23,297 bases of DNA, from contig JAHFBR010000001.1 in assembly GCA_023249955.1 (NCBI GenBank), positions 1 through 23,297 on the forward strand. Reading direction: 5' to 3'. Made by a program: the position numbers and the translations under genes. A model generated the notes under the pieces. The model was not told the DNA's origin, did not search any database, and saw nothing but the letters and a program-made list of their open reading frames with translations. This document shows positions 4,542 through 22,456 of the stretch, in pieces. Within the stretch, counting starts at the first letter, position 1. Every line of letters starts with the position of its first letter. Source of the DNA: a bacterium. Its GTDB lineage: Bacteria > Babelota > Babeliae > Babelales > RVW-14.

Positions 4542-6083
4542 ATGAATAAGCATATAAAAAAATTATTATGTGCCCTCTTGGCCATCAGCGCCACGCACCT
4601 TCAAGCGAGCAATCGCTACACCAACCAAACATATCTTGCACCGCGTCCACACGGCGTTAACTTGCCGATGGAATACACCGCGTTTCACGAACTGTTTGAA
4701 CGCAAGGTCGGCCATACTTTTGGTGGTAATTTGCAAGTGACCGGTTTTTATCAAGGGTCCACAGAATCTGAGGATATTGCGCGGTACTTTTTGTTTAATA
4801 AAAAAGATAGTATCACGTTGACCAAAGCAGCAGTTGCTGCCAACACAACAATTTCTACTGCTGCTGATCTAGATCTCGGCTATCTAATCCACGAGCAAGC
4901 AGGCGCCAACGCGCATTCCGCCAAAGTTACCTTCCGTCCGCAACAACAGTCATATGGCGTTCGTTTTGATTATCGCCAAGATCTGAGCAAGATCATGAAC
5001 GGTTTGTATTTCTATGCAAACGTCCCGGTTGTTTATGTTGAAAATAATGTTCGAATTGCTGTTTCGGCAGCCGGAAACTATTTGGTAGCAGATAACGTTA
5101 CACCCGTTGACACACCTGTCAAAACAGTTGTTGAAAAGTTCTTTAATGGAACATTTGAAAACACAGGTGCTGGTAACAACCACCAAGCCAAACTAACCAA
5201 CGCGCGCATTAGCGGCAAACAACGCACTACCAATCTTGCCGACCTGGACATGGGCCTGGGCTATCACTTCTGGAACAAAGAACGCTTTGCCATCGCACTC
5301 GCAGCTGCCGTCACCATTCCAACCGGCAACAAGGCCGAAGGCGTTTACTTGTTTGAACCACTTGCAGGCAATGGCAAACATTTTGCCGTCGGCGCTGATC
5401 TTGATGCGCACGTACGCATCTGGGGCAGACACGATCACAACGTCAAACTTGCGCTGGTTGCAAAATATCGCTACCTGTTTGAGCATATTGAAAGACGCAC
5501 GGTTGGTATCAAGGGTAGAAATTGGGGCCAGTATCATCTGTTAGCTACAACAAATTCACCAGCAGCAACTCAACAACTTACCCCTGCCGCCAACGTCCTG
5601 ACCTTCAACATGGACGTCACACCAGGCAGCCAATTTGATGGCGTCTTGAACATGTGCTACAACAACTGCAACTTCTCGGTCGATCTTGGCTACAACCTTT
5701 ATTACCGCGAAGACGAAACGGTAAAACTACGTGATACATTTACTGATAGTATCTATGCCATTGCAGCAAGAAATTTCGATACAAGCGCAGATTTTCTTGT
5801 GGTTGCTGCTGGCGCCCCAGTTACTCCTATCACCCCAAGCAATCGTATTGACGGTGACGTAGCAAACGGTGCAGCATCAATCCTGACCAACGCATCACTC
5901 GACTTCGATCGCGCAAAAACACCATCACAAACAACACACTCACTCTACGGCAATCTTTGCTATCACGTCAGCCAAGGTTCCAATCCATGGCTCCTTGCAA
6001 CCGGTGGCAAGTATGAATGGCCAGATCAAAACTCAGCGCTGCAACAATGGAGCGTATGGGGTAAAGTGGGGGTTGGTTTCTGA
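4542..6083 (+). CDS. Exported outer-membrane beta-barrel protein, paralog 1 of 3
   Basis: This is a 513-residue protein with a clear signal peptide (residues 1-22, KKLLCALLAISATHLQA, cleavage likely before SN). The mature N-terminus carries the paralog signature TYLAPRPHGVNLPMEYTAFHE. Further shared blocks are GVRFDYRQDL, LADLDMGLGYHFWNKE, VTIPTGNKAEGVYLFEPLAGNGKHF, KGRNWGQYHLL and VTPGSQFDGVL followed by DLGYNLYYREDE. Alternating polar and hydrophobic strands with glycine and aromatic residues, and a C-terminal strand ending in GVGF, fit a barrel inserted by the BAM machinery. No porin family could be named. The ATG follows GAGG by about 7 nt, and a strong terminator follows at 6105-6139. 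The paralogs at 16294 and 19094 share the same architecture, so this is a local expansion. Its role in transport, adhesion or surface coating is unknown. Confidence 0.8.
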   Translation: MNKHIKKLLCALLAISATHLQASNRYTNQTYLAPRPHGVNLPMEYTAFHELFERKVGHTFGGNLQVTGFYQGSTESEDIARYFLFNKKDSITLTKAAVAANTTISTAADLDLGYLIHEQAGANAHSAKVTFRPQQQSYGVRFDYRQDLSKIMNGLYFYANVPVVYVENNVRIAVSAAGNYLVADNVTPVDTPVKTVVEKFFNGTFENTGAGNNHQAKLTNARISGKQRTTNLADLDMGLGYHFWNKERFAIALAAAVTIPTGNKAEGVYLFEPLAGNGKHFAVGADLDAHVRIWGRHDHNVKLALVAKYRYLFEHIERRTVGIKGRNWGQYHLLATTNSPAATQQLTPAANVLTFNMDVTPGSQFDGVLNMCYNNCNFSVDLGYNLYYREDETVKLRDTFTDSIYAIAARNFDTSADFLVVAAGAPVTPITPSNRIDGDVANGAASILTNASLDFDRAKTPSQTTHSLYGNLCYHVSQGSNPWLLATGGKYEWPDQNSALQQWSVWGKVGVGF

Positions 6084-6510: not shown

Positions 6511-7863
6511 CTAAAAACTAAAACCAAGCTGTCCACCAATCGTCCGAGTGTCAATCAAATTCTTAGCATCATCAGCAAACTTAAAAAACAACGAAATCTG
6601 CGGCACAATGCGACGATGCGCATCTTCATCATCATCGCCATGCGGCGCCAAATTATAATCAACCGAGAAAATATAGTTGTGCACGTGCCATGCCCTCAAG
6701 CTGCGGGCAGAATTGATAATTGTTTTATCAAAGCCTGCAGTCTTTGGCGTCAGCTCATCTTCGTTGTGGCGCACAAACTGGTACGCAAATTTTGCCGACA
6801 AACCCTTGATGACCCGGTGAATACGAATAAACCCGTCAGCCTGCCACGTTTCACCATGCTTTTTGGTCGCACGTCCCTTGTTGATCAACAAAAATTCCGT
6901 TTGGTTAGGATGTGTTTTCAGGCGACGATTGTGTGTTTCATCAAACAAGAACGTGACATCATAATTTCCACCGACCGTGACGTGGTGCATCAGATCAACA
7001 TGAAATCCAACACCCAGCGGAATGCCCCAGGCGCCGTCGTTGCCCAGTGCCATGGAAAATGCTTGATCTTCATCACGCTTTTCCGCCGTTGGGCACGTTA
7101 CACCCAGCTTGGCTAAAAATGTGACGGTGTTGAAAAGTGAATGCTCGGTGTGGACGTCCTTGCGCCAGTCGATGAAGAATGAAACATCGCCAATGTCGGT
7201 TTTTTGCCAGTCGTCAAGATTGAGGTTGCCCATGCGTTTGACGTTATTTTTGAGATCGTTGGTGAGGAACTGTTGTACTCGTGTACCGCGTGGTAGAACA
7301 ATGCCTCCACCAATTATTGCGTTAGGATCGGTAAGATCCAGAATGCTCACATTACTAACTTTTTTGTAGACCACGGGAACAAATGCAGAAAACGAAAAAG
7401 TGCCAAAGGTTCTGGAGTGTAAAAAATGATAAGCGCTTAAGAAAGTAAAATCGGCTTCTTTAAAATTACCGGTGAGCAGTAGTTGTCCGGTCGTGCCGTC
7501 TGCTGGAAGGGGGGGGTCAAAGCTTACTCCCAGTGCTGTGAGCACACCAAAGCGGGCTGCAACAAATGCTGGATCTGCAGTGGCACCAGGAACAGGATCT
7601 TCTATCATTGCTAACGTCGCCTGCGTGTCATCATAAATTTGCAAAACATTGCGTGGATCACGATTCAAGTTACGGCATTTATCGCGTTCGCCCGCTTCAA
7701 CCTGCAGCCCAAGCATAAAATCGGTATCGCGATCAGCGAACGGCAGCTGAATGGCTGCGTCATATGAACGAAAAAAGTTGGTTGGTGCAAAGGCGTTTGC
7801 CTGCGCGGATGTCAGCAACAGGACCGCAGCTGCGGTGTGCTTTGTGTATCGTAACAAACTCAT
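6511..7863 (-). CDS. Exported outer-membrane beta-barrel-like protein (divergent from the three paralogs)
   Basis: This is a 450-residue protein with a signal peptide (residues 1-24, TAAAVLLLTSAQANA, cleavage before FAPT). The mature part has many short amphipathic stretches (FGTFSFSAFVPVVYKKV, LGVGFHVDLMHHVTVGGNYD, FKFAD) and ends in QLGFSF, a typical barrel-closing strand with terminal phenylalanine. It shares with the other barrel genes only the general plan, and lacks their PR-x-x-GV N-terminal motif. It is the second gene of an apparent operon, 56 nt behind the giant repeat-protein gene, with a hairpin in the gap. AAAGG stands about 8 nt before the ATG. Operon position suggests it works with the repeat protein, for example as an outer-membrane partner, but no POTRA or TPS-like domain is visible. 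No specific function can be assigned. Confidence 0.72.
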   Translation of the reverse strand: MSLLRYTKHTAAAVLLLTSAQANAFAPTNFFRSYDAAIQLPFADRDTDFMLGLQVEAGERDKCRNLNRDPRNVLQIYDDTQATLAMIEDPVPGATADPAFVAARFGVLTALGVSFDPPLPADGTTGQLLLTGNFKEADFTFLSAYHFLHSRTFGTFSFSAFVPVVYKKVSNVSILDLTDPNAIIGGGIVLPRGTRVQQFLTNDLKNNVKRMGNLNLDDWQKTDIGDVSFFIDWRKDVHTEHSLFNTVTFLAKLGVTCPTAEKRDEDQAFSMALGNDGAWGIPLGVGFHVDLMHHVTVGGNYDVTFLFDETHNRRLKTHPNQTEFLLINKGRATKKHGETWQADGFIRIHRVIKGLSAKFAYQFVRHNEDELTPKTAGFDKTIINSARSLRAWHVHNYIFSVDYNLAPHGDDDEDAHRRIVPQISLFFKFADDAKNLIDTRTIGGQLGFSF

Positions 7864-7919: not shown

Positions 7920-10900
7920 TTACTCGTTAACTCTGACGCCCCAGTTGCCTGCAACAACCAAGCCACCTGATGCCGTATCGCGCACAGGGGTTCCACCAGC
8001 AGGATTTGCGGTAGTAATATTGAGCAGTGAAGTGATTGACTGTGCGGCGGCTAAATTATCAGAGGTGCGCATATCTACTAAGTCAGGTGTGCCGGATGAG
8101 AAGAGTACCGAACCATCGGTCGAAATTGATGTTCTTGATTTACCAAGGTTAATAACTGTTGGTGTGCCTATCGGTTTTACATCCGTACCAGATACGTTAA
8201 AGCGATATACCTTGGTCTCAGATCCTTTAACGGCCAACACATACAGATTCCCATCGCTCAAGCCGCCCTTATGTTCTGGTACAAGAACAAGCTGAACCGG
8301 TGTACCATCAATGCCTGGGATTTGAGTTAATGCAAGTGTATCCAAGTCATCGGTTTTAAATAATCCTGATGTTGTTGCAACGATCGCCAGCTTTTCAGTG
8401 AGCAAGAGATCGAGACCGAATTGATCAGTCAGTGGGAGGTTTTTTGTTAAATTGCCGTCTTTATCGATGGTGGTGATGTGCTCAAGACCGAGTGCGGCAA
8501 TTCTGCCTGTGAAGAGACCAGCAGGGCTCTTTGCCGCCAGTGCTCTGATATCACTACCCAGAGCAGCAACGGGGATAAAGTCTTTTACACCAAATCCCAT
8601 GAGATCTGCTAAGCCAGCTGCTGGTGGGGCTTCGCTATCCCATGGAACACTGATTTTTACCACGCCCTTTTCACCGCCAACGTAGAGGAAGCCTTCATCT
8701 TTATCATCGCGTCGTGCTACCTCTGCACAGGTCAGCGGTGCAATGGTCTTCAATGCCGTCTTGTCAAGCACAACAACTGTATCATTCATCGAAAAATCGT
8801 CCGTTGGCTCAAGCGGAGCTCCAACGCCGGTTTGAATCAACGCGATCTTGTTGTTATTCCCCAGTGCAACGGCCATCGAGAACTCGTCGGTCTTGAAGCC
8901 CTTGGTCTTTTCATCAAAGTTAACAACACGCGCAACGCCGCTTGGGAAAGATTTTGCAAGTTCTGAGCTCAGTTTTCTGCTTGTTGCTGCAACCTCCTCG
9001 CTCTTGCCCCATGCATCAGCCTTGACGGTTTGATTTCCATCACCATCAAGCCACATGAAGCCAGCGTTTTTATTGTTGAACCCAAAGCCTGCTACTTTAT
9101 CCGTGGTTCCTGCAACACGTTGCCATGGCGACCAAGCGCGGATCAGGCCGTTTTCGTCAAAGATTGCCGAGCTTTGGAAGATGCCGGCCTCAACGTTGCC
9201 TGCGCCAGCAGCACGTGTTTCAGCAAGCGAGACGTACACGGCATCACCCACGACTTGAATGTCGGTGATTGTTTTATCAGCGTCATCGCCACCAATCAGG
9301 GTTGGATCGGCACCAACGACCAGTGGGTTACCGGTGTTATCGGTAGTACTGCGATCGACCTTTGGCGACTCGTGGCCAACAATGTCTAAGTCTAACAATT
9401 CAAACGCCTTGTTTACATCCAGCGTTGCAAGACCGTCTTGAGCGTTATCGACTTTTGCCAACTGTCCAGCATTGTTATTCCCCGCAGGCATAACAGGAAG
9501 AGCAAAGACCCAAGACTTGAGCTCCTTCGTGTCGCCGTCAGCAACACCGCCATTAACAATCACATAGTCTTTGCCCGTGCTGGTGTGCATAGTGCGTACA
9601 GCGAATGCGGTTGCAAGCCAAGCCTGCTTATTTCCAGCGTCCTCATGGAAGCCGACAATTTGCTGTTCAGGATCGGTACCGAGTTTATTGGTAGGATTGA
9701 CGACCACCGGTTTGATGAATGCTTTTTTATTATCAACGCCTGCAACCAGGAGCGATACAACGCCGCCGGTTTTATCATTGCCTTCATCAACCATGGTTGG
9801 GTTGGCGGCATCATCGGCATTGCCGCGGCCTAAACTATTTAAACCAATGTACAAACGCTGAAGCTTGCTATCCCAATGCATGGCGACTTTTTCATCAAGC
9901 ATTTGTGCATAATTCATTGGATCAACGCCAGCAAGGTTACTGAATGCAACGTTGCGATCGGCAGCGGTGATATCTTTTGCTGCTAAATTCAGCGCAAGTG
10001 CCTTGGTGCCTGCGGCAGTAACATCAGCTGGATCTTTGAGAGCGATGTTAGCTCCGTCCTTTTGCAGAATTGCAAATCCACGATTTTTACCTTCGCTGTC
10101 AACATCATTAGTTGCCCAGGTACGCGCAAGGCCGCCCGTGACGATGGCATCGTGGATAGCCCACCCTAAAGCTGCTTTGAGCGAAGCAATAGCGCCGGCC
10201 TCGATGGTATCTGCGATTGGGAGACCCTCGGCTGCAACGGCAGCGGCATTAAGATCAGCAGCGTTGGCAACTGCTTGCAAGTTAGCCGCAGAAAATTTGC
10301 TTTTATCAATGTTGGCTCCATCGACCGCAAGTGCTGCGGCTGCAGCGGTAACAATGGCGCTCTTTGGAACCAATTTTGTTGCCGTAAATGCTGCTGTATC
10401 TCCAGTAGCTTTTGCCAGAGCTGCTTTGATGCCGGTTTGAAGCGCAGGAAATGGTTCATTGCCAGCCTGGATTGCTGTTGCAAGTTTTGAGATAGCAGCT
10501 TGTGCAATCGAATTTCCTGCGGCAGCTGTTTTAAGTTTGTCGATAACACCACTGGCTCCATCGCTCAGCAGAGCTTTAATTTGTGCCTCTTCGCTGTTCA
10601 TCGTGACCTTGCGCGCGGCAAAGCCAAGCGCGGCTTCGATTGCAGCGGCTGCGCCAAATTGTGGCTTATTTGCGGTGATGACGTTTACGTTTGCAACGCC
10701 CGCAGCAGCTGTAGCATCAGCAGCCTCCGCGATATCCTGGAACTTATTTACTGCTGCAATAGCATCTTCAACACCATTTGCACCAGCTACCTCAATCTTG
10801 CTTGCACCCTGAGCGATGGCAAGAAGTGCATCTTTGAGTGCTTTTGCATCGGTAGCAGGAGCTTTGGCAGCGGCTGCTACGCCATCCCCAATGATCATGT

Positions 10901-13900
10901 TTGCTTTGGTTACAGCAGCCTTGGTGCCTTCTTTGACGGCAGCAAGAATTGCTTTAGCAAGTTCATCTTTGGCAGCACCAGCGCCACCAATCTGGCCGAT
11001 AGCCGCTCCTGCATCGTTACCGTTAAAGTTTGCGGCTTTTGCAAGGTCATCAAGCATCGGTTCAACAAAATTCGTTTTGATATCTTTTTCTGATGTATCA
11101 ACCAACGTGTTACGCACGCCCCAGCCAAGCGCTCCGATCAGCGCGGCGGCTGCACCTGCGTCGGCGTCTTTGGCAACGAGGACGCCTGCTGCAGCACCGG
11201 GAACGGCAAGGTTGTCAACGATGGTGGCGGCGGCAGCGATTGGATCTGCTTTGGCAATACCTTCTACTTTCCCTTTGCCTAGAGGAGTGATCAAGTCAGC
11301 GATATCCTTTGCAGTCGCACCCGTGGATGCGGCAACGGTCGTTGGAAGCTGAGCTTCGGTTGATGCAGCAGGAAATGCGCTGTTGAGTGCTGCATCTCTA
11401 CCCATGGTGACAGCGGTTAGAATTGCATCGGCGATGGCTAAACGGGCGGTATCGTTGGCTCCTCCCGCAGTATTGAGCATGGTGATGGCATCGACAAGCT
11501 TAGCATGCTTAGTATCATTGATTGTTGGAGCAACAACCTTGTCAAGAAGGTCTGTAAGCAGCGGTTTAACAAGAATCAGATCTATGTACGCTGCGTTTTT
11601 GTTGATCACCTCAAAAGGATTTGCAATGCCCCAACCAAGGGTGCCAATGAGGGCTGCCGCTGGGCCATTATTCTTGTTGTTATCCTTCAGGGCGCCAGCG
11701 GGCATAACAAGAGCATCAACGACGGCGACAGCCTGTGGTCTTGTTGGCTTCGCTGCAACATCTTTGATTTGATCTGATGTGATTACGTTCTTTATGGCGG
11801 TCACATCCCCTCCAGCTGAAGTCTGGACCTTGGCGACGAGTGTTTTTGCGTTTGTATTTACCGCAGTAAATGCATTCGCTACAGCAGTGCCACGTCCAGC
11901 TTTAACAGCTGTGATGATTGCAGTGGCGATGGCAGTTCGGGCGGCATCGGCATTTTTATCGCCGGCATTATTGAGATCGGTGATAGCTTTAAGAGCTGTG
12001 GCATTGCCCGCCATCATAAGATTTGGAGCTGCTGCAAGTGCGCCAAGCATAGGCTTGACAATTTCAGTATCAACTGTCCCAGCATTGGTATCAACAATGG
12101 CTGTGTCGGGTGTTCCCATACTATCATTCTGTCCCGCTCTAATTCCCCATCCCAACGTCCCAATCAACGCAGCCGCGCTGCCATCTGCTGCTTTATTGCC
12201 ACCCAGGGGGCCTCCGCCTGCTTTTGCAAGGTCGTTAACGGCGTTGACGGCGTTTGCAATGGTTGCCTGGCCTGCAACATTTTGCATATCGTTTTGCTTG
12301 ATCAAATCTTTGAACGTGGCGGCGGTTGAGCCAACGGCGGCTTTTGCGATTGCTTTATCAAGATCTCCGCCAGCATTTTGTGTTGCGGTAAAAGCATTTA
12401 CAGCAGCTTGTGGAATGCGGCCGTCTGCAAGATCTTTTACGGCAGCTTCGACGACAGCGAAAAATGGTTTGGAGATTTTTGAGTCGCCCACGCCTCCGCC
12501 TCCACCGGCGGCTAATCCTAAGTCTGTATCGATCGCTTTAACAACGTGCTTGGCGACTGGTAAGTCCTTAAGGGCTCCGCCTACCTTTTCTAACTCAGCC
12601 GTGATTGCTGTGGCATCACCTTTAACATCACCTTCTGCGGAAGCTACGATATCCGCAGGGCCTACACTTTGTCCCGCAAACTTAAATTTCCCAATCGCAC
12701 GACCAATCATGCCACTCAGCGCAGTCTCGACACCACCTGCTGCGGTGTCAGCTCCGCCTGCTGCGGCTGCAGTGGCGGCAGCGTCAACCATACTTTCAAC
12801 ACTTGCATTTTTCGCGCGTGCTTCGTTCATGGTAATGCCTGTGGCACCATCGAATGTTGTGTTAAACGTTGGCGCAAGGGCGGTGACGACAGCCATGGTG
12901 ACTGGGTTGATATTTGCTTTCTCTTGGACTTGTGTTACGGCGTTGTTGACGCGTTTGGTGAGTGCGAGCTTCTTGGTGTCAGCGTCAGTTTGGTCATATT
13001 TTACTTCGTCAGCAACTGCGCCTTGCGTTGGTCCATCATTGGTCACTTTGTTTGCGGCATAGGCAGCAATGGTTTTTCCTGCAGCTGAATATTTTTTAGC
13101 AACTTGGTCTGCGCCTTCTTTGAATAAAGCTTTAATTGCCATTTTTGAAGCAACGTCTGAAACTTGTGGCGTTTCTCCTGAGCGCAGTGCCCATGCAACG
13201 CCGCCAGCAAGTGCCGCTGCGGTGCCGTTGTGGAGAGAATCACTATCGCTGCCCGCGTAAACAGCGTCTGCAACAGCTTCGAGAGCCTTATCTTTTTGGA
13301 AGCCAGGGGTAAAGAAAACGGGGTCGTTCTTGACGATGGCCGCGTTCTGCATTCGCTTGCCTGTGGTGAAGTTAATAGTCGCAGGCGTGACTTTAGTTTT
13401 ATCTAACGACAGTACTTTTACCGCTTTGTCTATCACTTCTTTGCCATCAACATCAGCACCAGCCTTCTCTGCAGCACTATGAACAGCCGTTGCTGTGTCA
13501 TTTTTTTTCACAACAGGTGCAAATGGGTTGGTTGCATCAATATTTTTATCAGCCTTGGTTTTTACAAGCGATTTTACTGAATTAAGAAATAGAGCATCAG
13601 CTGCAAGAAGTTGTGATGCTACCGCAGCCTTGGTCTTTGCCGCAATATCCATGGTTACTTTTTCTAGGATATCTTTGCTTGGTGTTCCTGGAATATCAGT
13701 GGTCTTGGCACCCTTTGCTGATCCATCCGCTACCGCAGCAAAAATCAGCGGGTCGCTTGCATCGGTGCCGGCGACGGCGACAACAGGGCCGCTGATGGTA
13801 ACAGGTTTTTTAGCGGCATCGAAAAGTGCAGCGCTTTCAATGGTGCCAGCACTGCTTTGCACAACAATTTTTTTACCAGCATCGCCATCACGCACAATCA

Positions 13901-14276
13901 AAAGTTTGCGGTCGTTATCAGGGCCAGCAAGAGCGAGCTTTGAGATTTTTTTATTGTTGAGATCGCCGGTTGTTGCAAGTCCGGTCAAAAGAACTTTGTC
14001 TTTACCTTTATTTGCCCCGTCTGTTTGTCGCACTGATTGTGCAACGGTGACTGCAGCGGCCTGGGGGTTTTTTTCTGTTACGCCAGCGGCACCGAGATAC
14101 AGCTTGTTATTTGCTTGATCGTAAACGGTGGTGGCAAAATCGACATCGGCGGGGGCGGTTGTTTTTTGCGTTACCGAACGTGTGATCAGATCATCATTTG
14201 CCTGCGCAACAGACATCGTGACAAGCGCTACGAACACAAACCTTGTGCCCACATGCGCCGTAGAAAATTTTTTCAT
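7920..14276 (-). CDS. Giant exported alanine-rich repeat protein with propeller-like flanks (2118 aa)
   Basis: This is a single open frame of 2118 codons, starting 5-6 nt after AGGAGAG. Residues 1-26 form a signal peptide (RFVFVALVTMSVAQA, then NDD). Residues 27 to about 195 are strand-rich (TTVYDQANNKLYLGAAG, RKLLIVRDGDAGKKIVVQSS). From about 195 to 1425 the protein is alanine-rich and helical, with seven degenerate units. Each unit is marked by a motif like AAALIGTLGWGIR, centred near residues 357, 520, 705, 877, 1047, 1213 and 1366, a spacing of 150-185. From about 1455 to the end it is again strand-rich with propeller-like blades (MHWDSKLQRLYIGLNSL, FLYVGGEKGVVKIS, GNLYVLAVKGSETKVYRF). 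The N-terminal LYLG piece resembles LYIG at 1470, so the helical array may interrupt one propeller. Only one cysteine was seen. The gene was not recognised; a surface or secreted structural role is an inference. Confidence 0.85.
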   Translation of the reverse strand: MKKFSTAHVGTRFVFVALVTMSVAQANDDLITRSVTQKTTAPADVDFATTVYDQANNKLYLGAAGVTEKNPQAAAVTVAQSVRQTDGANKGKDKVLLTGLATTGDLNNKKISKLALAGPDNDRKLLIVRDGDAGKKIVVQSSAGTIESAALFDAAKKPVTISGPVVAVAGTDASDPLIFAAVADGSAKGAKTTDIPGTPSKDILEKVTMDIAAKTKAAVASQLLAADALFLNSVKSLVKTKADKNIDATNPFAPVVKKNDTATAVHSAAEKAGADVDGKEVIDKAVKVLSLDKTKVTPATINFTTGKRMQNAAIVKNDPVFFTPGFQKDKALEAVADAVYAGSDSDSLHNGTAAALAGGVAWALRSGETPQVSDVASKMAIKALFKEGADQVAKKYSAAGKTIAAYAANKVTNDGPTQGAVADEVKYDQTDADTKKLALTKRVNNAVTQVQEKANINPVTMAVVTALAPTFNTTFDGATGITMNEARAKNASVESMVDAAATAAAAGGADTAAGGVETALSGMIGRAIGKFKFAGQSVGPADIVASAEGDVKGDATAITAELEKVGGALKDLPVAKHVVKAIDTDLGLAAGGGGGVGDSKISKPFFAVVEAAVKDLADGRIPQAAVNAFTATQNAGGDLDKAIAKAAVGSTAATFKDLIKQNDMQNVAGQATIANAVNAVNDLAKAGGGPLGGNKAADGSAAALIGTLGWGIRAGQNDSMGTPDTAIVDTNAGTVDTEIVKPMLGALAAAPNLMMAGNATALKAITDLNNAGDKNADAARTAIATAIITAVKAGRGTAVANAFTAVNTNAKTLVAKVQTSAGGDVTAIKNVITSDQIKDVAAKPTRPQAVAVVDALVMPAGALKDNNKNNGPAAALIGTLGWGIANPFEVINKNAAYIDLILVKPLLTDLLDKVVAPTINDTKHAKLVDAITMLNTAGGANDTARLAIADAILTAVTMGRDAALNSAFPAASTEAQLPTTVAASTGATAKDIADLITPLGKGKVEGIAKADPIAAAATIVDNLAVPGAAAGVLVAKDADAGAAAALIGALGWGVRNTLVDTSEKDIKTNFVEPMLDDLAKAANFNGNDAGAAIGQIGGAGAAKDELAKAILAAVKEGTKAAVTKANMIIGDGVAAAAKAPATDAKALKDALLAIAQGASKIEVAGANGVEDAIAAVNKFQDIAEAADATAAAGVANVNVITANKPQFGAAAAIEAALGFAARKVTMNSEEAQIKALLSDGASGVIDKLKTAAAGNSIAQAAISKLATAIQAGNEPFPALQTGIKAALAKATGDTAAFTATKLVPKSAIVTAAAAALAVDGANIDKSKFSAANLQAVANAADLNAAAVAAEGLPIADTIEAGAIASLKAALGWAIHDAIVTGGLARTWATNDVDSEGKNRGFAILQKDGANIALKDPADVTAAGTKALALNLAAKDITAADRNVAFSNLAGVDPMNYAQMLDEKVAMHWDSKLQRLYIGLNSLGRGNADDAANPTMVDEGNDKTGGVVSLLVAGVDNKKAFIKPVVVNPTNKLGTDPEQQIVGFHEDAGNKQAWLATAFAVRTMHTSTGKDYVIVNGGVADGDTKELKSWVFALPVMPAGNNNAGQLAKVDNAQDGLATLDVNKAFELLDLDIVGHESPKVDRSTTDNTGNPLVVGADPTLIGGDDADKTITDIQVVGDAVYVSLAETRAAGAGNVEAGIFQSSAIFDENGLIRAWSPWQRVAGTTDKVAGFGFNNKNAGFMWLDGDGNQTVKADAWGKSEEVAATSRKLSSELAKSFPSGVARVVNFDEKTKGFKTDEFSMAVALGNNNKIALIQTGVGAPLEPTDDFSMNDTVVVLDKTALKTIAPLTCAEVARRDDKDEGFLYVGGEKGVVKISVPWDSEAPPAAGLADLMGFGVKDFIPVAALGSDIRALAAKSPAGLFTGRIAALGLEHITTIDKDGNLTKNLPLTDQFGLDLLLTEKLAIVATTSGLFKTDDLDTLALTQIPGIDGTPVQLVLVPEHKGGLSDGNLYVLAVKGSETKVYRFNVSGTDVKPIGTPTVINLGKSRTSISTDGSVLFSSGTPDLVDMRTSDNLAAAQSITSLLNITTANPAGGTPVRDTASGGLVVAGNWGVRVNE

Positions 14277-16293: not shown

Positions 16294-17826
16294 ATGAATA
16301 AGATGTTAAAGGGACTTTTGGTTTCCCTCCTTGCAGTGAGTGCTGCGCAAGTTGACGCGCACACCAACAAGACTTTCTTGTTGCCACGTTCGCAAGGCGT
16401 TCAACTTCCAATGCAATACACAACATTTCATGAATTAGTTGGCAGAAAAGCTGAAGATAAATTCGGCGGTAACTTTGCAGTTACGGGATTCTATTCGCAT
16501 TCGGCAAATGAAAGCGAAACGGCTGAGTACTTCTTGGTAAAAGACAAGAGCAAAATCACCTTGAACGCTCTTTCAACCGCAGCAGCCGGTAACGTCGGTG
16601 GCCTAACCTCTGCAGGCAATGATGTTGATCTCTTCTACATCATTCACAATCGTGACAGAACAGACGTTCAAGCTGCAGCAGAAGCCGGAACAACAACAAT
16701 CGCCCTTGACCCAGAACACAGTTTTTATGGCGTTCGCTTTGACTATCACCAAGATTTAGACAAAATCCTCAAAGGTCTTTATTTGTGTGCCAGTCTTCCA
16801 ATCGTTCACGTTGAGAATGATCCAGAACTCAGCGTAGTAAGCAACGGAACCTTGCCCGCTGCCAACCTTGCAGCAGGAGCTGACACTTCACTTAAGAACA
16901 ATCTTGAGAAGTATTTCCGTGGAGAGTTTGAAAACACACAAGCCAATAACTTGCAAGCCAAACTTACTAACGCAAAAATCGTCAGCTCAGACGAAACAGG
17001 CGTTGCAGATATTGACATCGCACTTGGTTACAAATTCTTGAACAAAGAAAAATACCATGCTGCATTGGCAATCGCTGTAACGATTCCAACAGGCGATGAA
17101 GCTGATGGCGTAACCATGTTCGAAGCACTTGTTGGTAACGGCAAGCACTTTGGCCTTGGCGGCGACTTCTGCGCAGGCGCACGTGTTTGGGGCGATATGG
17201 ACCACAACATCAAAGTTATGCTCAAGATGAAATATCGCTACTTGTTTGAAAATAGCGAAAAGAGAACACTTGGTATCAAGGGCAGAAACTTTGGCCAATA
17301 TTTCTTGCTTGGCAAAAGAGATGCCGCAGGCGCTAAACAACTCATTCCAGCAGCAAACGTCACAACACTCAATGTTGATGTAACACCAGGCAGCCAATTT
17401 GATGGCGTCCTTGCTTTTGCATACAACAATGGCGGCTTCTGCTTTGATCTTGGCTACAACATGTACTTCAGAGAAGATGAAGATGTTGAGTTGAAAGATA
17501 CATTTGAGACAGGCCTTTATACAATTGCAGCAAGATCTGCTGACACCGCTAATGCCTTCGCTAACCCAATTGTTGCCGCTAACAACATTACCGATGGCAA
17601 CGCAGCAGCTGGAGCAGCCTCCATTCTCAGCAAAGATAGCCTTGATCTTGGCACAGCCTCAACCCCATCACAATTCACACACACCATCTTCACAGCACTT
17701 GGCTTTACCTTCAAAGAGTGGGATAACCCTCTGATGCTTGGCGTCGGTGGCAAATACGAATTTGCTTCAGAAAACTCCGCGCTTGATATGTGGGGTATCT
17801 GGGCTAAGCTTGGTATCGGCTTCTAA
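16294..17826 (+). CDS. Exported outer-membrane beta-barrel protein, paralog 2 of 3
   Basis: This is a 510-residue protein with a signal peptide (residues 1-22, LLVSLLAVSAAQVDA, cleavage before HTNK). It follows paralog 1 closely in the blocks TFLLPRSQGVQLPMQYTTFHE, GVRFDYHQDLDKIL, ADIDIALGYKFLNKE, VTIPTGDEADGVTMFEALVG, RTLGIKGRNFGQYFLLG, VTPGSQFDGVLAFAYNN and DLGYNMYFREDEDVELKDTF. It ends in WAKLGIGF, a barrel-closing strand. Residues between the blocks differ most near 95-135, 190-220 and 435-460, which may be surface loops. It is monocistronic, with its own terminator at 17853-17882 and a long upstream leader. Barrel topology is an inference from strand pattern and the terminal phenylalanine; the substrate or ligand is unknown. 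Confidence 0.8.
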   Translation: MNKMLKGLLVSLLAVSAAQVDAHTNKTFLLPRSQGVQLPMQYTTFHELVGRKAEDKFGGNFAVTGFYSHSANESETAEYFLVKDKSKITLNALSTAAAGNVGGLTSAGNDVDLFYIIHNRDRTDVQAAAEAGTTTIALDPEHSFYGVRFDYHQDLDKILKGLYLCASLPIVHVENDPELSVVSNGTLPAANLAAGADTSLKNNLEKYFRGEFENTQANNLQAKLTNAKIVSSDETGVADIDIALGYKFLNKEKYHAALAIAVTIPTGDEADGVTMFEALVGNGKHFGLGGDFCAGARVWGDMDHNIKVMLKMKYRYLFENSEKRTLGIKGRNFGQYFLLGKRDAAGAKQLIPAANVTTLNVDVTPGSQFDGVLAFAYNNGGFCFDLGYNMYFREDEDVELKDTFETGLYTIAARSADTANAFANPIVAANNITDGNAAAGAASILSKDSLDLGTASTPSQFTHTIFTALGFTFKEWDNPLMLGVGGKYEFASENSALDMWGIWAKLGIGF

Positions 17827-18414: not shown

Positions 18415-18476
18415 AAAACTAACGCTACGGATGTGCCGTGCGAAAAGCTAAAAAAAGCGGGGGATTAGGAGAAACA

Positions 18477-18857
18477 ATGAATACAAAAAGAATACTATCC
18501 AGCGCGCTGCTGTCCGCGCTGTTGATGACGTCATTTTCGTTTGTTCAAGCTGGAAAAAAAGTATCACAAGAACAGGCTAAGAAAACAGCAGGCGCCAAAA
18601 AAGGTGCTGGAGGCGCAACAAAAAGACAACGTACACAACGTACACCAAGAAAACGCGTAGCTCCTAAGGGTGGTCGCAGAACACGCACCACGCGTCGTGC
18701 AAAAACGGGCGCACCAAAAAAAGGCGCTGCTGCAACAACACGCAAGACGGTTGGCAAGCCAGGCGAAAAGCCAGCGAAACGCGGCTTCTTTAAGCGTGGC
18801 CAAAAGAAAGCAACCACAACGACACGTCAAACGACTGGTGCAACGTCAGGCAAATAA
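18477..18857 (+). CDS. Small exported, extremely basic (histone H1-tail-like) protein
   Basis: This is a 126-residue protein. Residues 1-25 form a signal peptide (RILSSALLSALLMTSFSFVQA, cleaved before GKK). The mature 101 residues are almost entirely K, R, T, A, G, P and Q, with low-complexity segments such as KKTAGAKKGAGGATKRQR, RRTRTTRRAKTGAPKKGA and KATTTTRQTTGATSGK. I saw no acidic residues beyond two glutamates and no cysteine. The composition resembles eukaryotic histone H1 tails or bacterial histone-like Hc proteins, but those are cytoplasmic whereas this one is addressed to the export pathway. The ATG at 18477 is preferred because AGGAGA is about 5 nt upstream and the signal peptide starts there; an in-frame upstream ATG adds a polar stretch. 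A hairpin terminator follows at 18894-18920. Alternatives are a periplasmic nucleic-acid or polyanion binder, or a surface mucin-like protein. Confidence 0.78.
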   Translation: MNTKRILSSALLSALLMTSFSFVQAGKKVSQEQAKKTAGAKKGAGGATKRQRTQRTPRKRVAPKGGRRTRTTRRAKTGAPKKGAAATTRKTVGKPGEKPAKRGFFKRGQKKATTTTRQTTGATSGK

Positions 18858-18920: not shown

Positions 18921-19093
18921 TCTATTTCTACCAATCATCACCACAGTACATTAACCACCTCCTTACAAAACTCTTGCCATTCAATTCTTGATTGGCTAAC
19001 CTCAGGTGTAGTTTCAAAAAAATCATTCTGTCACTACCACAAGCGACAGCGCGTCGCTTCACAAAAAAAGGTAAGAAAGAAAGGAGACCAAGA

Positions 19094-20575
19094 ATGACGT
19101 ACAATAAGATTGTTTACAATCTTTTTATGGTTGCTGCTTTGGTATGGGGTAGCGCTGCTGCACGAGGCTTTTCAGGCTATTCACAAAAAACGTATCTGTC
19201 CCCCCGCTCGCACGGTGTTAACACCGCCATGGAGTACACCACGTGGCATCAACATGCATACAAAAAACACAAAGTCACGAATCGCTCTCATTTTCAAGCA
19301 GCACCGTTTTATCAAAAGTCACAACGAGCTGCAGAGTTAGGTAAATATTTTGGTATTGGCAACGGCAAGAATAGTTTTAAAATTGGCTTGTTGCCACCGG
19401 ATGCTCAAGCTGCTGATCTCGACAAGGGCTTGATCATTCACGACCAGGGAGCTCGAGCCGATGGTTTACGCGGCACCGTCGCTTTCAATCCAGAGCAAGA
19501 GGTCTTTGGCTCACGCTTGGATTTTTTCCAAGACGTGAATCACCCTGTTGCAGGGCTCTTTTTTAAAGCCAGCGCGCCGTTCGTACACGTAGCCAACACC
19601 ATGGGCCTCAAAGTCACTGATGGACATGCAACACCAGCCTTTGGTACCAAAACATTCACTCTGGAAGACTTTTTTGCAGGACGCGTTCAAGTTCTTGCAG
19701 CTGATGACGGTACCAATCTCCAAGATCCACTCACCAAAGCAAAAATTGCCGGCCGCCGTACCGCACAAGGTATTGCCGACATCGATTTGGGCCTTGGCTA
19801 CAAGTATTTGGATGAAGAAAAACGCCACGCATTTATCAGCGTTGAAGTCACCATTCCAACCGGAACCAAGGTACGCGGTGAGTATCTGTTTGATGCCGCT
19901 TACGGCAACGGCCGCCACTTCGGACTCGGCGCAAGCCTTGATGCCGGCCTTGAGCTGTGGAGATCGGACAAATCGACGCTCCGCGCCTTGTGGGTTGCTC
20001 GCTACAAATACCTTTTTGAGGGTACTGAGAGCAGAACACTGGGTGTAAAAGGAGTGCCATTTGGTCAGTATTTCCTAGCTGGAACTACAGATCCTGCAGG
20101 CACTGGTACAGCACAAACTGGCAAAGCATTGTTTCCTTTAGCCAACGTTCTTACCCAAGGCCTCACCGTCAAGCCTGGCAGCATGCTGGATACCTCGCTT
20201 GATTTCGCGTTTAACAGCAATAACTTCACTATCGACGTAGGCTACAACCTGTTCTGGAGAGATCAAGAAACGGTACACGCGAAGGCTGCCTTTAGTCAAA
20301 ATTTGGCAATCGCCGCTGGAGCCCATGATACAACAGGCCCACTGGTCGTTCCCGCTGCTGTATTCCTGAATAACATTGGATCACTTCTTGACATCTCCAC
20401 CGTCAAAACACCGTCTCTGTTAAGCCACAAACTCTTTGCTGGCTTTGGCTACAGCGGTACGATGTACAAACATTGCCGCTGGTCGGTTGGCTGTGGCGGA
20501 TCATACGAATTTGCTACCTCCAATGCTGATATCGAAAACTACGCTGTCTGGTTGAAGGGCGGCCTCTCGATATAA
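19094..20575 (+). CDS. Exported outer-membrane beta-barrel protein, paralog 3 of 3 (most divergent)
   Basis: This is a 493-residue protein beginning at the ATG 6-7 nt after AAGGAGA; the open frame extends further upstream but without signal-peptide character. The signal peptide is about residues 1-23 (VYNLFMVAALVWGSAAA). The paralog signature is present as TYLSPRSHGVNTAMEYTTWHQ, followed by GSRLDFFQDV, IADIDLGLGYKYLDEE, VTIPTGTKVRGEYLFDAAYGNGRHF, RTLGVKGVPFGQYFLAGT, VKPGSMLDTSLDFAFNS and DVGYNLFWRDQE. It ends in WLKGGLSI, so the terminal residue is isoleucine rather than the usual barrel phenylalanine. It has its own terminator at 20606-20630. Divergence from paralogs 1 and 2, which resemble each other more, suggests an older duplication. 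Function is unknown. Confidence 0.78.
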   Translation: MTYNKIVYNLFMVAALVWGSAAARGFSGYSQKTYLSPRSHGVNTAMEYTTWHQHAYKKHKVTNRSHFQAAPFYQKSQRAAELGKYFGIGNGKNSFKIGLLPPDAQAADLDKGLIIHDQGARADGLRGTVAFNPEQEVFGSRLDFFQDVNHPVAGLFFKASAPFVHVANTMGLKVTDGHATPAFGTKTFTLEDFFAGRVQVLAADDGTNLQDPLTKAKIAGRRTAQGIADIDLGLGYKYLDEEKRHAFISVEVTIPTGTKVRGEYLFDAAYGNGRHFGLGASLDAGLELWRSDKSTLRALWVARYKYLFEGTESRTLGVKGVPFGQYFLAGTTDPAGTGTAQTGKALFPLANVLTQGLTVKPGSMLDTSLDFAFNSNNFTIDVGYNLFWRDQETVHAKAAFSQNLAIAAGAHDTTGPLVVPAAVFLNNIGSLLDISTVKTPSLLSHKLFAGFGYSGTMYKHCRWSVGCGGSYEFATSNADIENYAVWLKGGLSI

Positions 20576-20706: not shown

Positions 20707-20828
20707 AGGCCGAAACGGCCTTTGTGCCAGCAAAATTATTATTGTAAGCTAATAATAACGCAAACCCAGCCAGAAAAGCTGTGTTCTGCGTACCGGAGGT
20801 TATGGTGTTTTACTGGAGGTTATTATGA
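20707..20828 (+). promoter_or_regulatory. Structured leader with duplicated ribosome site before the helical exported protein
   Basis: The leader contains AGGCCG-AAA-CGGCCT (20707-20721) and TTATTATT...AATAATAA (20736-20758). It then has GGAGGTTAT twice (20795-20803 and 20815-20823). The second copy is the ribosome site of the gene at 20825. The first lies just before an eight-codon frame (20802-20828, MVFYWRLL) whose TGA overlaps the gene's ATG. Its spacing of 2 nt is short for efficient initiation. Confidence 0.4.
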
Positions 20829-22456
20829 AACACGTACGCTTATTATTCATCGCAAGCGTATGCGCATTGGCAAGCATACCAACATCTATGACTTCACTTC
20901 AGGCCATGTATCGTCAACCCGCAACACTTCAAGCAACGTTTGCTGAGGCTACTCACAATCTTGACGAGGTGCAAGGAGCGATCATTGCTGCGGCAAATTT
21001 TAATGAAAAAATAGCGCAGCTGGACACTATTCAGCTTCGCCAAGCTCAACTAACAGAATGTGCTAATACTGTTAACAGCAACCTTATTCATAGTGTACAA
21101 ACAACCGGCATTTGTCTTTCAGGCATGCAAACCATTGCTCGCCATTGCGCAACAATCTTGCAAAACATTACAGATTCTTTCAACGCAGCAGACCAGCGAT
21201 CGCTTGATATCGAACCGGTTAAAATAACACTACAAGCTTTCAAAACCAAAATTCTTGGTTTTACACAATTGTTTGTTCCAATCGTTAACGAATCTGTAGA
21301 TGGTCGCTTTAAAAGCATGCTCTATCCTAAACACTTACAACCAGCTCGCCAAGCATGCGACCTTGTTGATCAAGTTTTAAAAAATATTGAACAAACCAAC
21401 ACAGCTCTAGCAACTATTAACGAAACAAAGCAAAAATTTGAGCTGAAATGTAATGCAACGTGTGACAACACATCATACATGCAACAGTACTTGCCACAAC
21501 CAAGTGATGAAATTAACGGTATGGCCGAGAGAATCGCTCACCTTAATGAGGTCGAAGCTACCCATGCACACTTGATGCAAGGCTTTGCACAATACTTTGA
21601 TACAATCATAAATAATACCGGTGATGCCAAAAACCATATCATGCAAGCAATTGATGATCACGTACATCCTGATCTTAATCATCATATGGCACAAACACTA
21701 AACCGCATGGGCCTTAATGGCGCAATGATTATGGAATACGTTTTTCAGCAAATCATTCTTCCATACAAAATCATGACTAACTTGCCTCAACCAACCGTAC
21801 CTAACATCAATACCATCAGCCAATACGCTGAATGGTTCGTTAATGTGCACGCGCCAGAGAACCTTAATGATGTAAACCTTGTAACATTATACAAATTTAT
21901 TGTTGAGCTGCTTAACGCAGATCCATCATCTGCTGAACTCCGCGCTACGTACGGCAACCAAATAGTAATTAACTGTATTGAAGCATTACATACCCTTGCA
22001 AACACCAACGAGCTTGTTCCGTATACTCACGTACGCCAAACCATTGCAGCTGCCAACGAAGCAGTAGCATTTGGTATCAACGTTGCTCCAATATATCAAA
22101 TGCTATACGAAGCTCTCAAAAAATATATTGTCACTACAAGCAAATTGGCTCTTAACGATGTTAACGCAGCAACAGCTGTTCACACTGTTCTTGAACTCGT
22201 CCGAGAGCAAGAATTTGCTCGTGACCTCTTCGCAACAGCTCGCGCCACCATGGAAGCTGCAACGTATCGCTGGCTCTGCGGCTGGAAAACAGCAAAGCAG
22301 CTTGACCGTGCTCGCAAAAATAAAGAACTCGCACCCAGAATCGCAGAGATCTTTGCATTAACAGAAATCTTTGCGTTAGCAGATGCAATTAATGCTGAAG
22401 AAGAAGTAGACGCAGAAGATGACGACAGCGTCGAGGGTGAAGAGCCTGCAGAATAA
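20825..22456 (+). CDS. Exported helical protein with acidic C-terminal tail (unknown function)
   Basis: This is a 543-residue protein whose start lies 5 nt after GGAGG. Residues 1-27 form a signal peptide (LLFIASVCALASIPTSMTSLQA). The rest is predicted mainly helical, with heptad-like and amphipathic stretches (ATHNLDEVQGAIIAAANFNEKIAQLD, ACDLVDQVLKNIEQTNTALATINETK read in parts). Cysteines occur in the N-terminal half (TECANTV, GICLSG, RHCATIL, ARQACDL, KCNATCDN) and could form disulfides outside the cytoplasm. The C-terminus has a short tandem IFALTEIFALAD followed by a strongly acidic tail (NAEEEVDAEDDDSVEGEE). No catalytic motif or named domain was recognised. It is a stand-alone gene between two terminators, convergent with fabF. 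A secreted or periplasmic host-interaction protein is one option. Confidence 0.78.
   Translation: MKHVRLLFIASVCALASIPTSMTSLQAMYRQPATLQATFAEATHNLDEVQGAIIAAANFNEKIAQLDTIQLRQAQLTECANTVNSNLIHSVQTTGICLSGMQTIARHCATILQNITDSFNAADQRSLDIEPVKITLQAFKTKILGFTQLFVPIVNESVDGRFKSMLYPKHLQPARQACDLVDQVLKNIEQTNTALATINETKQKFELKCNATCDNTSYMQQYLPQPSDEINGMAERIAHLNEVEATHAHLMQGFAQYFDTIINNTGDAKNHIMQAIDDHVHPDLNHHMAQTLNRMGLNGAMIMEYVFQQIILPYKIMTNLPQPTVPNINTISQYAEWFVNVHAPENLNDVNLVTLYKFIVELLNADPSSAELRATYGNQIVINCIEALHTLANTNELVPYTHVRQTIAAANEAVAFGINVAPIYQMLYEALKKYIVTTSKLALNDVNAATAVHTVLELVREQEFARDLFATARATMEAATYRWLCGWKTAKQLDRARKNKELAPRIAEIFALTEIFALADAINAEEEVDAEDDDSVEGEEPAE

Follow-up and report, generated by a model that had tools for sequence, protein, structure and literature searches.

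What is a long alanine-rich repeat array doing in the middle of an exported bacterial protein that otherwise resembles a beta-propeller, and what might such a protein do in the cell envelope? The question is raised by a 23,297-nucleotide stretch of DNA (hereafter the window) that makes up the whole of contig JAHFBR010000001.1, from a Babelota assembly of 1.06 Mb (GCA_023249955.1; 141 contigs, 86% complete). Positions 7920..14276, on the minus strand, hold an intact open reading frame (ORF) for 2118 residues that begins with ATG, ends with the stop codon at 7920-7922 and has no internal stops. An earlier note on this DNA described its product as an exported protein with seven alanine-rich units apparently inserted into a propeller-like domain, and raised the idea of a new surface or secretion system. 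By sequence comparison with relatives, we show here a conserved scaffold, the place where the array enters it, five repeat units that are clear and a conserved barrel-type neighbor, and we model the propeller fold on a relative.

The insertion point in a conserved scaffold

Besides the window protein itself, a search with the full-length sequence recovered a single relative, a protein of 3345 residues (P0002). With the C-terminal 666 residues as query, 89 of the order's 101 genomes yielded relatives, and with a relative as query the scaffold turned up in 91 of the 101 genomes searched for the phylum Dependentiae/Babelota. Twelve relatives lie in named genomes, including isolate Noda2021 (gene L141), and kinship with them places the window in this phylum; in the window's taxonomic family, certain genomes carry several scaffold genes each. 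We built a scaffold profile from 87 of the 98 scaffold ORFs (850 to 1110 residues); neither the window protein nor P0002 is among these 87, and no array motif was seen in them. The profile aligned to the window protein on both sides of the array, with nodes 6-175 matching residues 13-187 (26.6 bits; independent E-value 1.5e-10, with two sequences searched) and a C-terminal match of 340.6 bits in which nodes 182-187 fall at residues 1400-1405. The scaffold set had been gathered with the C-terminal part of the window protein, so of the two matches it is the one at residues 13-187 that gives evidence independent of how the set was assembled.

After a signal-peptide-like N-terminus without a lipobox, read by eye (residues 1-26; 14199..14276, minus strand), the window protein accordingly divides into the first part of an N-terminal propeller (residues 27-187; 13716..14198, minus strand), the array, and the remainder of that propeller together with a C-terminal propeller (residues ~1400-2118; 7920..10079, minus strand). 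The scaffold resumes near residue 1400 and not at 1455, where the post-array part had been placed, and the two blade-like strings that had suggested an interrupted propeller, NNKLYLGAAG and LQRLYIGLNSL, both lie within stretches aligned by the profile. In all 85 rows of our alignment of array-free relatives (85 of 88 listed references were used), the insertion point is a loop of 10 to 20 residues (median, 12), and in P0002 about 2360 residues intervene where the array enters the window protein. The proposal that the array interrupts a propeller is therefore supported, as array-free relatives align to both sides at one point, which in the propeller-like model of a relative is a short loop within the N-terminal half. 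Together, these alignments show that the array was inserted into a conserved scaffold at a single site. We rejected an assembly artifact as its origin, because the aligned units are 32 to 44% identical, too diverged for collapsed repeats.

Profile and structure databases offered no family for the scaffold. No Pfam family matched the window protein at an E-value of 0.1 and none matched 10 scaffold relatives at 0.01, which leaves the WD40 profile unmatched in all of them. A sequence search of PDB returned 8 rows for the C-terminal 666 residues, none of them a convincing relative, and 0 rows for the scaffold alignment; the best row over these searches and one with the barrel alignment described below, an antibody light chain (0.0038), was taken as chance. 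Phage records, queried with the C-terminal 666 residues only, gave no match, and a first scan of contigs with the full-length protein gave 30 pattern matches and no relatives.

The array and its growth

The gap in the scaffold profile, the unit profiles and composition (23.9% alanine, versus 12.7% in the flanks) place the array at residues 188-1376 (10149..13715, minus strand), which corrects its length from the 1230 residues first estimated to about 1190. The repeated motif, reported at a spacing of 150 to 185 residues, lies at residues 353, 517, 701, 873, 1043, 1210 and 1363, with a spacing of 153 to 184; the scan for these seven places was built from the same seven places and is circular, and an earlier fixed motif pattern recovered only three of them. 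In leave-one-out profile tests, units 3 to 7 scored 11.6 to 41.9 bits, compared to 1.8 to 5.6 bits for the best of 200 shuffles each, while units 1 and 2, at 0.9 and -6.2 bits, failed against shuffles. On the minus strand, the five recovered units are unit 3 (residues 531-714; 12135..12686; 30.9 bits), unit 4 (residues 715-889, with 886 as the end in profile tests; 11610..12134; 41.9 bits), unit 5 (residues 890-1056; 11109..11609; 40.3 bits), unit 6 (residues 1057-1223; 10608..11108; 11.6 bits) and unit 7 (residues 1224-1376; 10149..10607; 24.1 bits). A profile made from the units of P0002 alone likewise recovered units 3 to 7, with 34.3 bits for unit 6, and missed units 1 and 2. When the motif of units 3 to 7 alone was used as a score, the divergent unit 1 (residues 188-366; 13179..13715, minus strand) was reached by none of 300 shuffles and unit 2, the weakest (residues 367-530; 12687..13178, minus strand), by 4 of 300, neither exceeding shuffles as a whole unit. 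We thus dropped the idea of seven equally good units in favor of five solid ones, a first recognizable by its motif and a marginal second.

In scaffold proteins from outside the window's taxonomic family (78,761 residues), nothing reached the threshold of the seven-place motif score, and the array alone as query found only itself among 7987 scored candidates. A single-unit model (query residues 860-1060, which contain unit 5) was all-helical with a predicted local distance difference test score (pLDDT) of 61.8, four further models reaching 43.8 to 46.1; Foldseek with this low-confidence model gave 24 rows, none at an E-value of 0.001. Of the helical repeats described earlier, then, the repetition is clear for units 3 to 7 and weaker for units 1 and 2, and their helicity is hinted at, with low confidence, by the model of a single unit.

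Relatives with other numbers of units, which the earlier note had proposed to look for, do exist. P0002 has 10 motif places and three double-length gaps, which suggests that its array, inserted at the site shared with the window protein, has about 13 units (the three unit boundaries without a motif were placed halfway). Reciprocal matches link its units 3 and 9 and its units 6 and 12, and a one-way match links units 7 and 13, at 32 to 40% identity; because the matching units are offset by six, a block duplication would account for them. Within the window protein, units 3 to 5 are the most alike. Its units 3 and 5 match P0002 unit 3 or 9 and its unit 6 matches P0002 unit 6, while the matches of window unit 7 to P0002 unit 13 and of window unit 6 to P0002 unit 9 cover the motif only (21 to 24 residues), the latter out of order. 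The two proteins group in a tree of 33 sequences (support, 0.878), and the cross-matching units together with this grouping point to one shared insertion. Collectively, the comparisons support growth of the array by duplication of units and blocks.

Functionless sequence that accumulated in a tolerant loop would also lengthen a protein, and it would fit both the poor preservation of units 1 and 2, unrecognizable as whole units, and the result that the array query matched only one of the 101 genomes, the window's own. Such drift is very improbable in our judgment, given that the reading frame is open throughout the array, that the motif is kept in units of diverged proteins, and that the window protein and P0002 share the insertion site and group together in the tree.

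Outside this pair, a gene of genome G009 (L026) carries two related units at another loop (E-values, 0.00017 and 2.5e-05), and genome G003 shows a motif-level trace of the array. A window-type unit in all inserts of the taxonomic family was rejected: L026 has its two units, L030 resembles them at the motif level only, and L028, L029 and L119 do not have them; the other large inserts in the family show no sequence kinship to the array units. The scaffold gene of L026 (6752-12425) seemingly lies in two overlapping frames, from a sequencing error or a real break, and was treated as two pieces. L119 (7026-12461; G003) runs for more than 1100 residues past profile node 364, matching neither the scaffold nor the window units, until the contig end cuts the gene. 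The extra length of L131 (4922-8992; G045; 1357 residues) and L136 (6593-12166; G044; 1858 residues) resembles repeated propeller parts and not a helical array.

The propeller fold and its barrel-type partner

The fold was approached through a 957-residue relative (L059), whose AlphaFold2 model is of high quality (pLDDT, 87.7; predicted template modeling score, 0.90) and consists almost entirely of strands, with beta-propellers as the best structural matches. The model has 35 strands of at least 3 residues before residue 540, of which 27 were assigned as first-ring blade strands, both the blade letters (a to d) and the blade strands being assigned by reading the strand list; a VIA-align comparison covered mainly residues 478-957 and tested the first ring less directly. 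In its model, L059 shows the two rings of four-stranded blades that define a double beta-propeller, and the window protein is assigned to this fold by alignment. The scaffold thus looks like a double propeller whose first ring is split by the array.

Among the top Foldseek rows for L059 are the eukaryotic multi-propeller proteins Lgl2, Gemin5 and DDB1 and the repetitive propeller 2ymu. Lgl2, Gemin5 and DDB1 have more than one propeller per chain, DDB1 having three. Identity to these four is about 8 to 12%, with low whole-chain template modeling (TM) scores and no WD40 or other Pfam match, and the window protein differs from them in being exported, bacterial and equipped with a putative helical array within a loop.

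The barrel-type gene that the earlier note had seen in an operon with this protein lies 56 bases downstream on the same strand (6511..7863, minus strand) and encodes 450 residues with a terminal Phe. We surveyed neighbors in fetched stretches around the 98 scaffold genes, considering ORFs of at least 200 residues and counting as adjacent, irrespective of small ORFs in between, those separated from the scaffold frame by -200 to 500 bases on its downstream side or by up to 700 on its upstream side. A barrel-type gene adjoins 85 of the 98 on the same strand, 76 downstream (gaps of -148 to 198 bases between open frames) and 9 upstream, and is therefore a conserved neighbor; of the 13 without one, 5 are truncated where the contig or the fetched stretch ends. 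Gene order did not resolve into clean clades, as the nine reversed-order barrels grouped with three of the other order and eight of the nine reversed-order propellers with two of the other order. Also in these neighborhoods, by eye, are a ComM/Mg-chelatase-type ATPase-like gene on the opposite strand upstream (43 of 98) and a type II/type IV pilus inner-membrane-like gene third downstream (15 of 98).

From its signal-like start read by eye, its terminal Phe and weak matches of its family to OMP_b-brl, we take the partner to be a putative outer-membrane barrel. In two-partner secretion (TPS) and in type IX secretion with its PorP/SprF proteins, too, a barrel accompanies a large exported protein, and in this the gene pair, with its putative barrel, resembles them. 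It differs from the former in having no TPS domain (the window protein matches no Pfam family) and no POTRA or ShlB among the 11 Pfam families seen, at E-values up to 1, for 45 barrel-family members, and from the latter in that PorP_SprF is absent from those families and from the NCBIfam matches of the barrel family as well. A sequence search of PDB with the barrel alignment gave 1 row, not a convincing one.

Elsewhere in the window, three paralogous, exported barrel-like proteins of 510 to 527 residues are encoded on the plus strand (4542-6083, 16294-17826 and 18992-20575), with mutual phmmer E-values of ~1e-159 to 1e-83 and relatives in three fetched stretches. A 139-residue protein (18438-18857, plus strand; no Pfam match) has a signal-peptide-like stretch and then a Lys/Arg/Thr/Ala-rich tail, resembling an exported polycation, and an exported-looking protein of 543 residues (20825-22456, plus strand) has no Pfam match and no relatives among the fetched ORFs.

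Proposed location and function in the cell envelope

We give about an even chance to a reading in which the locus encodes an envelope module, so far undescribed, of propeller and barrel, whose arm is specific to the lineage and probably reaches toward the host. A two-gene module common across Dependentiae/Babelota would consist of a tandem double beta-propeller and a barrel-type outer-membrane protein of ~430 residues, with the propeller docked onto its barrel partner at the outer membrane. In the lineage of the window, tandem alanine-rich units of ~170 residues would have taken the place of one short loop in the N-terminal propeller, and the resulting array may act as an arm extending the reach of one propeller face, most likely outward to a protist host. 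Our preference for an outward, host-facing arm stems from the variability and lineage specificity of the inserts, in bacteria that live inside protists.

Several results weigh against this reading. The barrel family is present in all 101 genomes, with 1 to 7 matches each, while no scaffold match was found in 10 of the 101, five of them among the 68 high-quality ones, so either the pairing is dispensable or some scaffolds escaped detection. OMP_b-brl matches are weak (2 of 45 barrel-family members; best E-value, 0.0018), as is the one NCBIfam match, to outer_TDE1717 at 0.077. Foldseek whole-chain TM-scores for L059 reach only 0.15 to 0.24 (query normalized), which leaves the two-ring arrangement unmatched by a known structure, and matches to the array query, as noted, are confined to one genome. 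Finally, two classes of N-terminal-propeller loops do not differ in conservation (0.31 versus 0.33); no binding face stands out, and we rejected a conserved one on this propeller.

A periplasmic role is a serious rival, and loop conservation favors neither it nor the outward arm. In this role the double propeller would stay in the periplasm as a subunit that assembles or gates its barrel, somewhat like BamB with BamA, and the array would be a periplasmic spacer. Propellers do serve as periplasmic partners of barrels: BamB, a lipoprotein, and TolB are exported, single periplasmic propellers of Gram-negative envelopes that cooperate with an outer-membrane system, and the scaffold resembles them as an exported propeller with a putative outer-membrane partner. 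Its wide presence and its pairing with a barrel gene fit such a role, as does the signal-like N-terminus, beside which no other sorting signal was seen by eye. It differs from both proteins in being a double propeller without a Pfam match, and from BamB in lacking an N-terminal lipoprotein cysteine; the sole cysteine of the window protein, correctly counted in the earlier note, is residue 1850, and a lipobox-like motif occurs in 2 of the 96 scaffold-family members that start with Met, the window protein not among them. The absence of this motif from the other 94, the large lineage-specific inserts and multiple scaffold genes of some genomes, unusual for a housekeeping subunit, and the genomes without a scaffold match lead us to consider the periplasmic role possible yet doubtful.

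In the accessible part of the account of Babela massiliensis, a member of the same phylum, type II is the sole secretion system reported, and beta-propellers are listed among repeat proteins that are likely host-interaction proteins, with secretion predicted for some of them (PMC4378268). The window protein shares the phylum with these propeller-containing and large secreted proteins but differs from them in having one cysteine, and that part of the account describes neither a propeller-barrel gene pair nor a helical array (PMC4378268). For Chromulinavorax, signal sequences are reported in 44% of proteins (PMC6561590). A protein released from the cell to act in the host, with type II secretion as a possible route and the barrel as a mere genomic neighbor, would agree with the Babela account and with the pilus-type gene found third downstream at some loci. 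We regard such an effector as improbable, since an adjacent barrel at 85 of 98 loci, including the nine in reverse order, is too regular for chance.

The envelope module with its outward arm thus remains our preferred reading. A literature search, most subscription papers being outside its reach, found no description of a propeller-barrel gene pair, and no paper combining beta-propeller, insertion, alanine-rich and helical repeats. The new surface or secretion system first suggested goes beyond these data, the array-free form being the norm in the phylum. More tentatively, the pair may be a phylum-wide, undescribed two-component outer-membrane display system, in which a propeller face would serve as a platform and lineages would plug different duplicating inserts into its loops, with helical arms of 7 to ~13 units altering host contact. 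At the level of the phylum, the gene pair, which has a scaffold match in most genomes and belongs to no named family, could be one of the features that define the envelope of these bacteria. The array itself is a clear natural case of repeat growth inside the loop of a closed propeller, of which array-free, 7-unit and ~13-unit forms can be compared.

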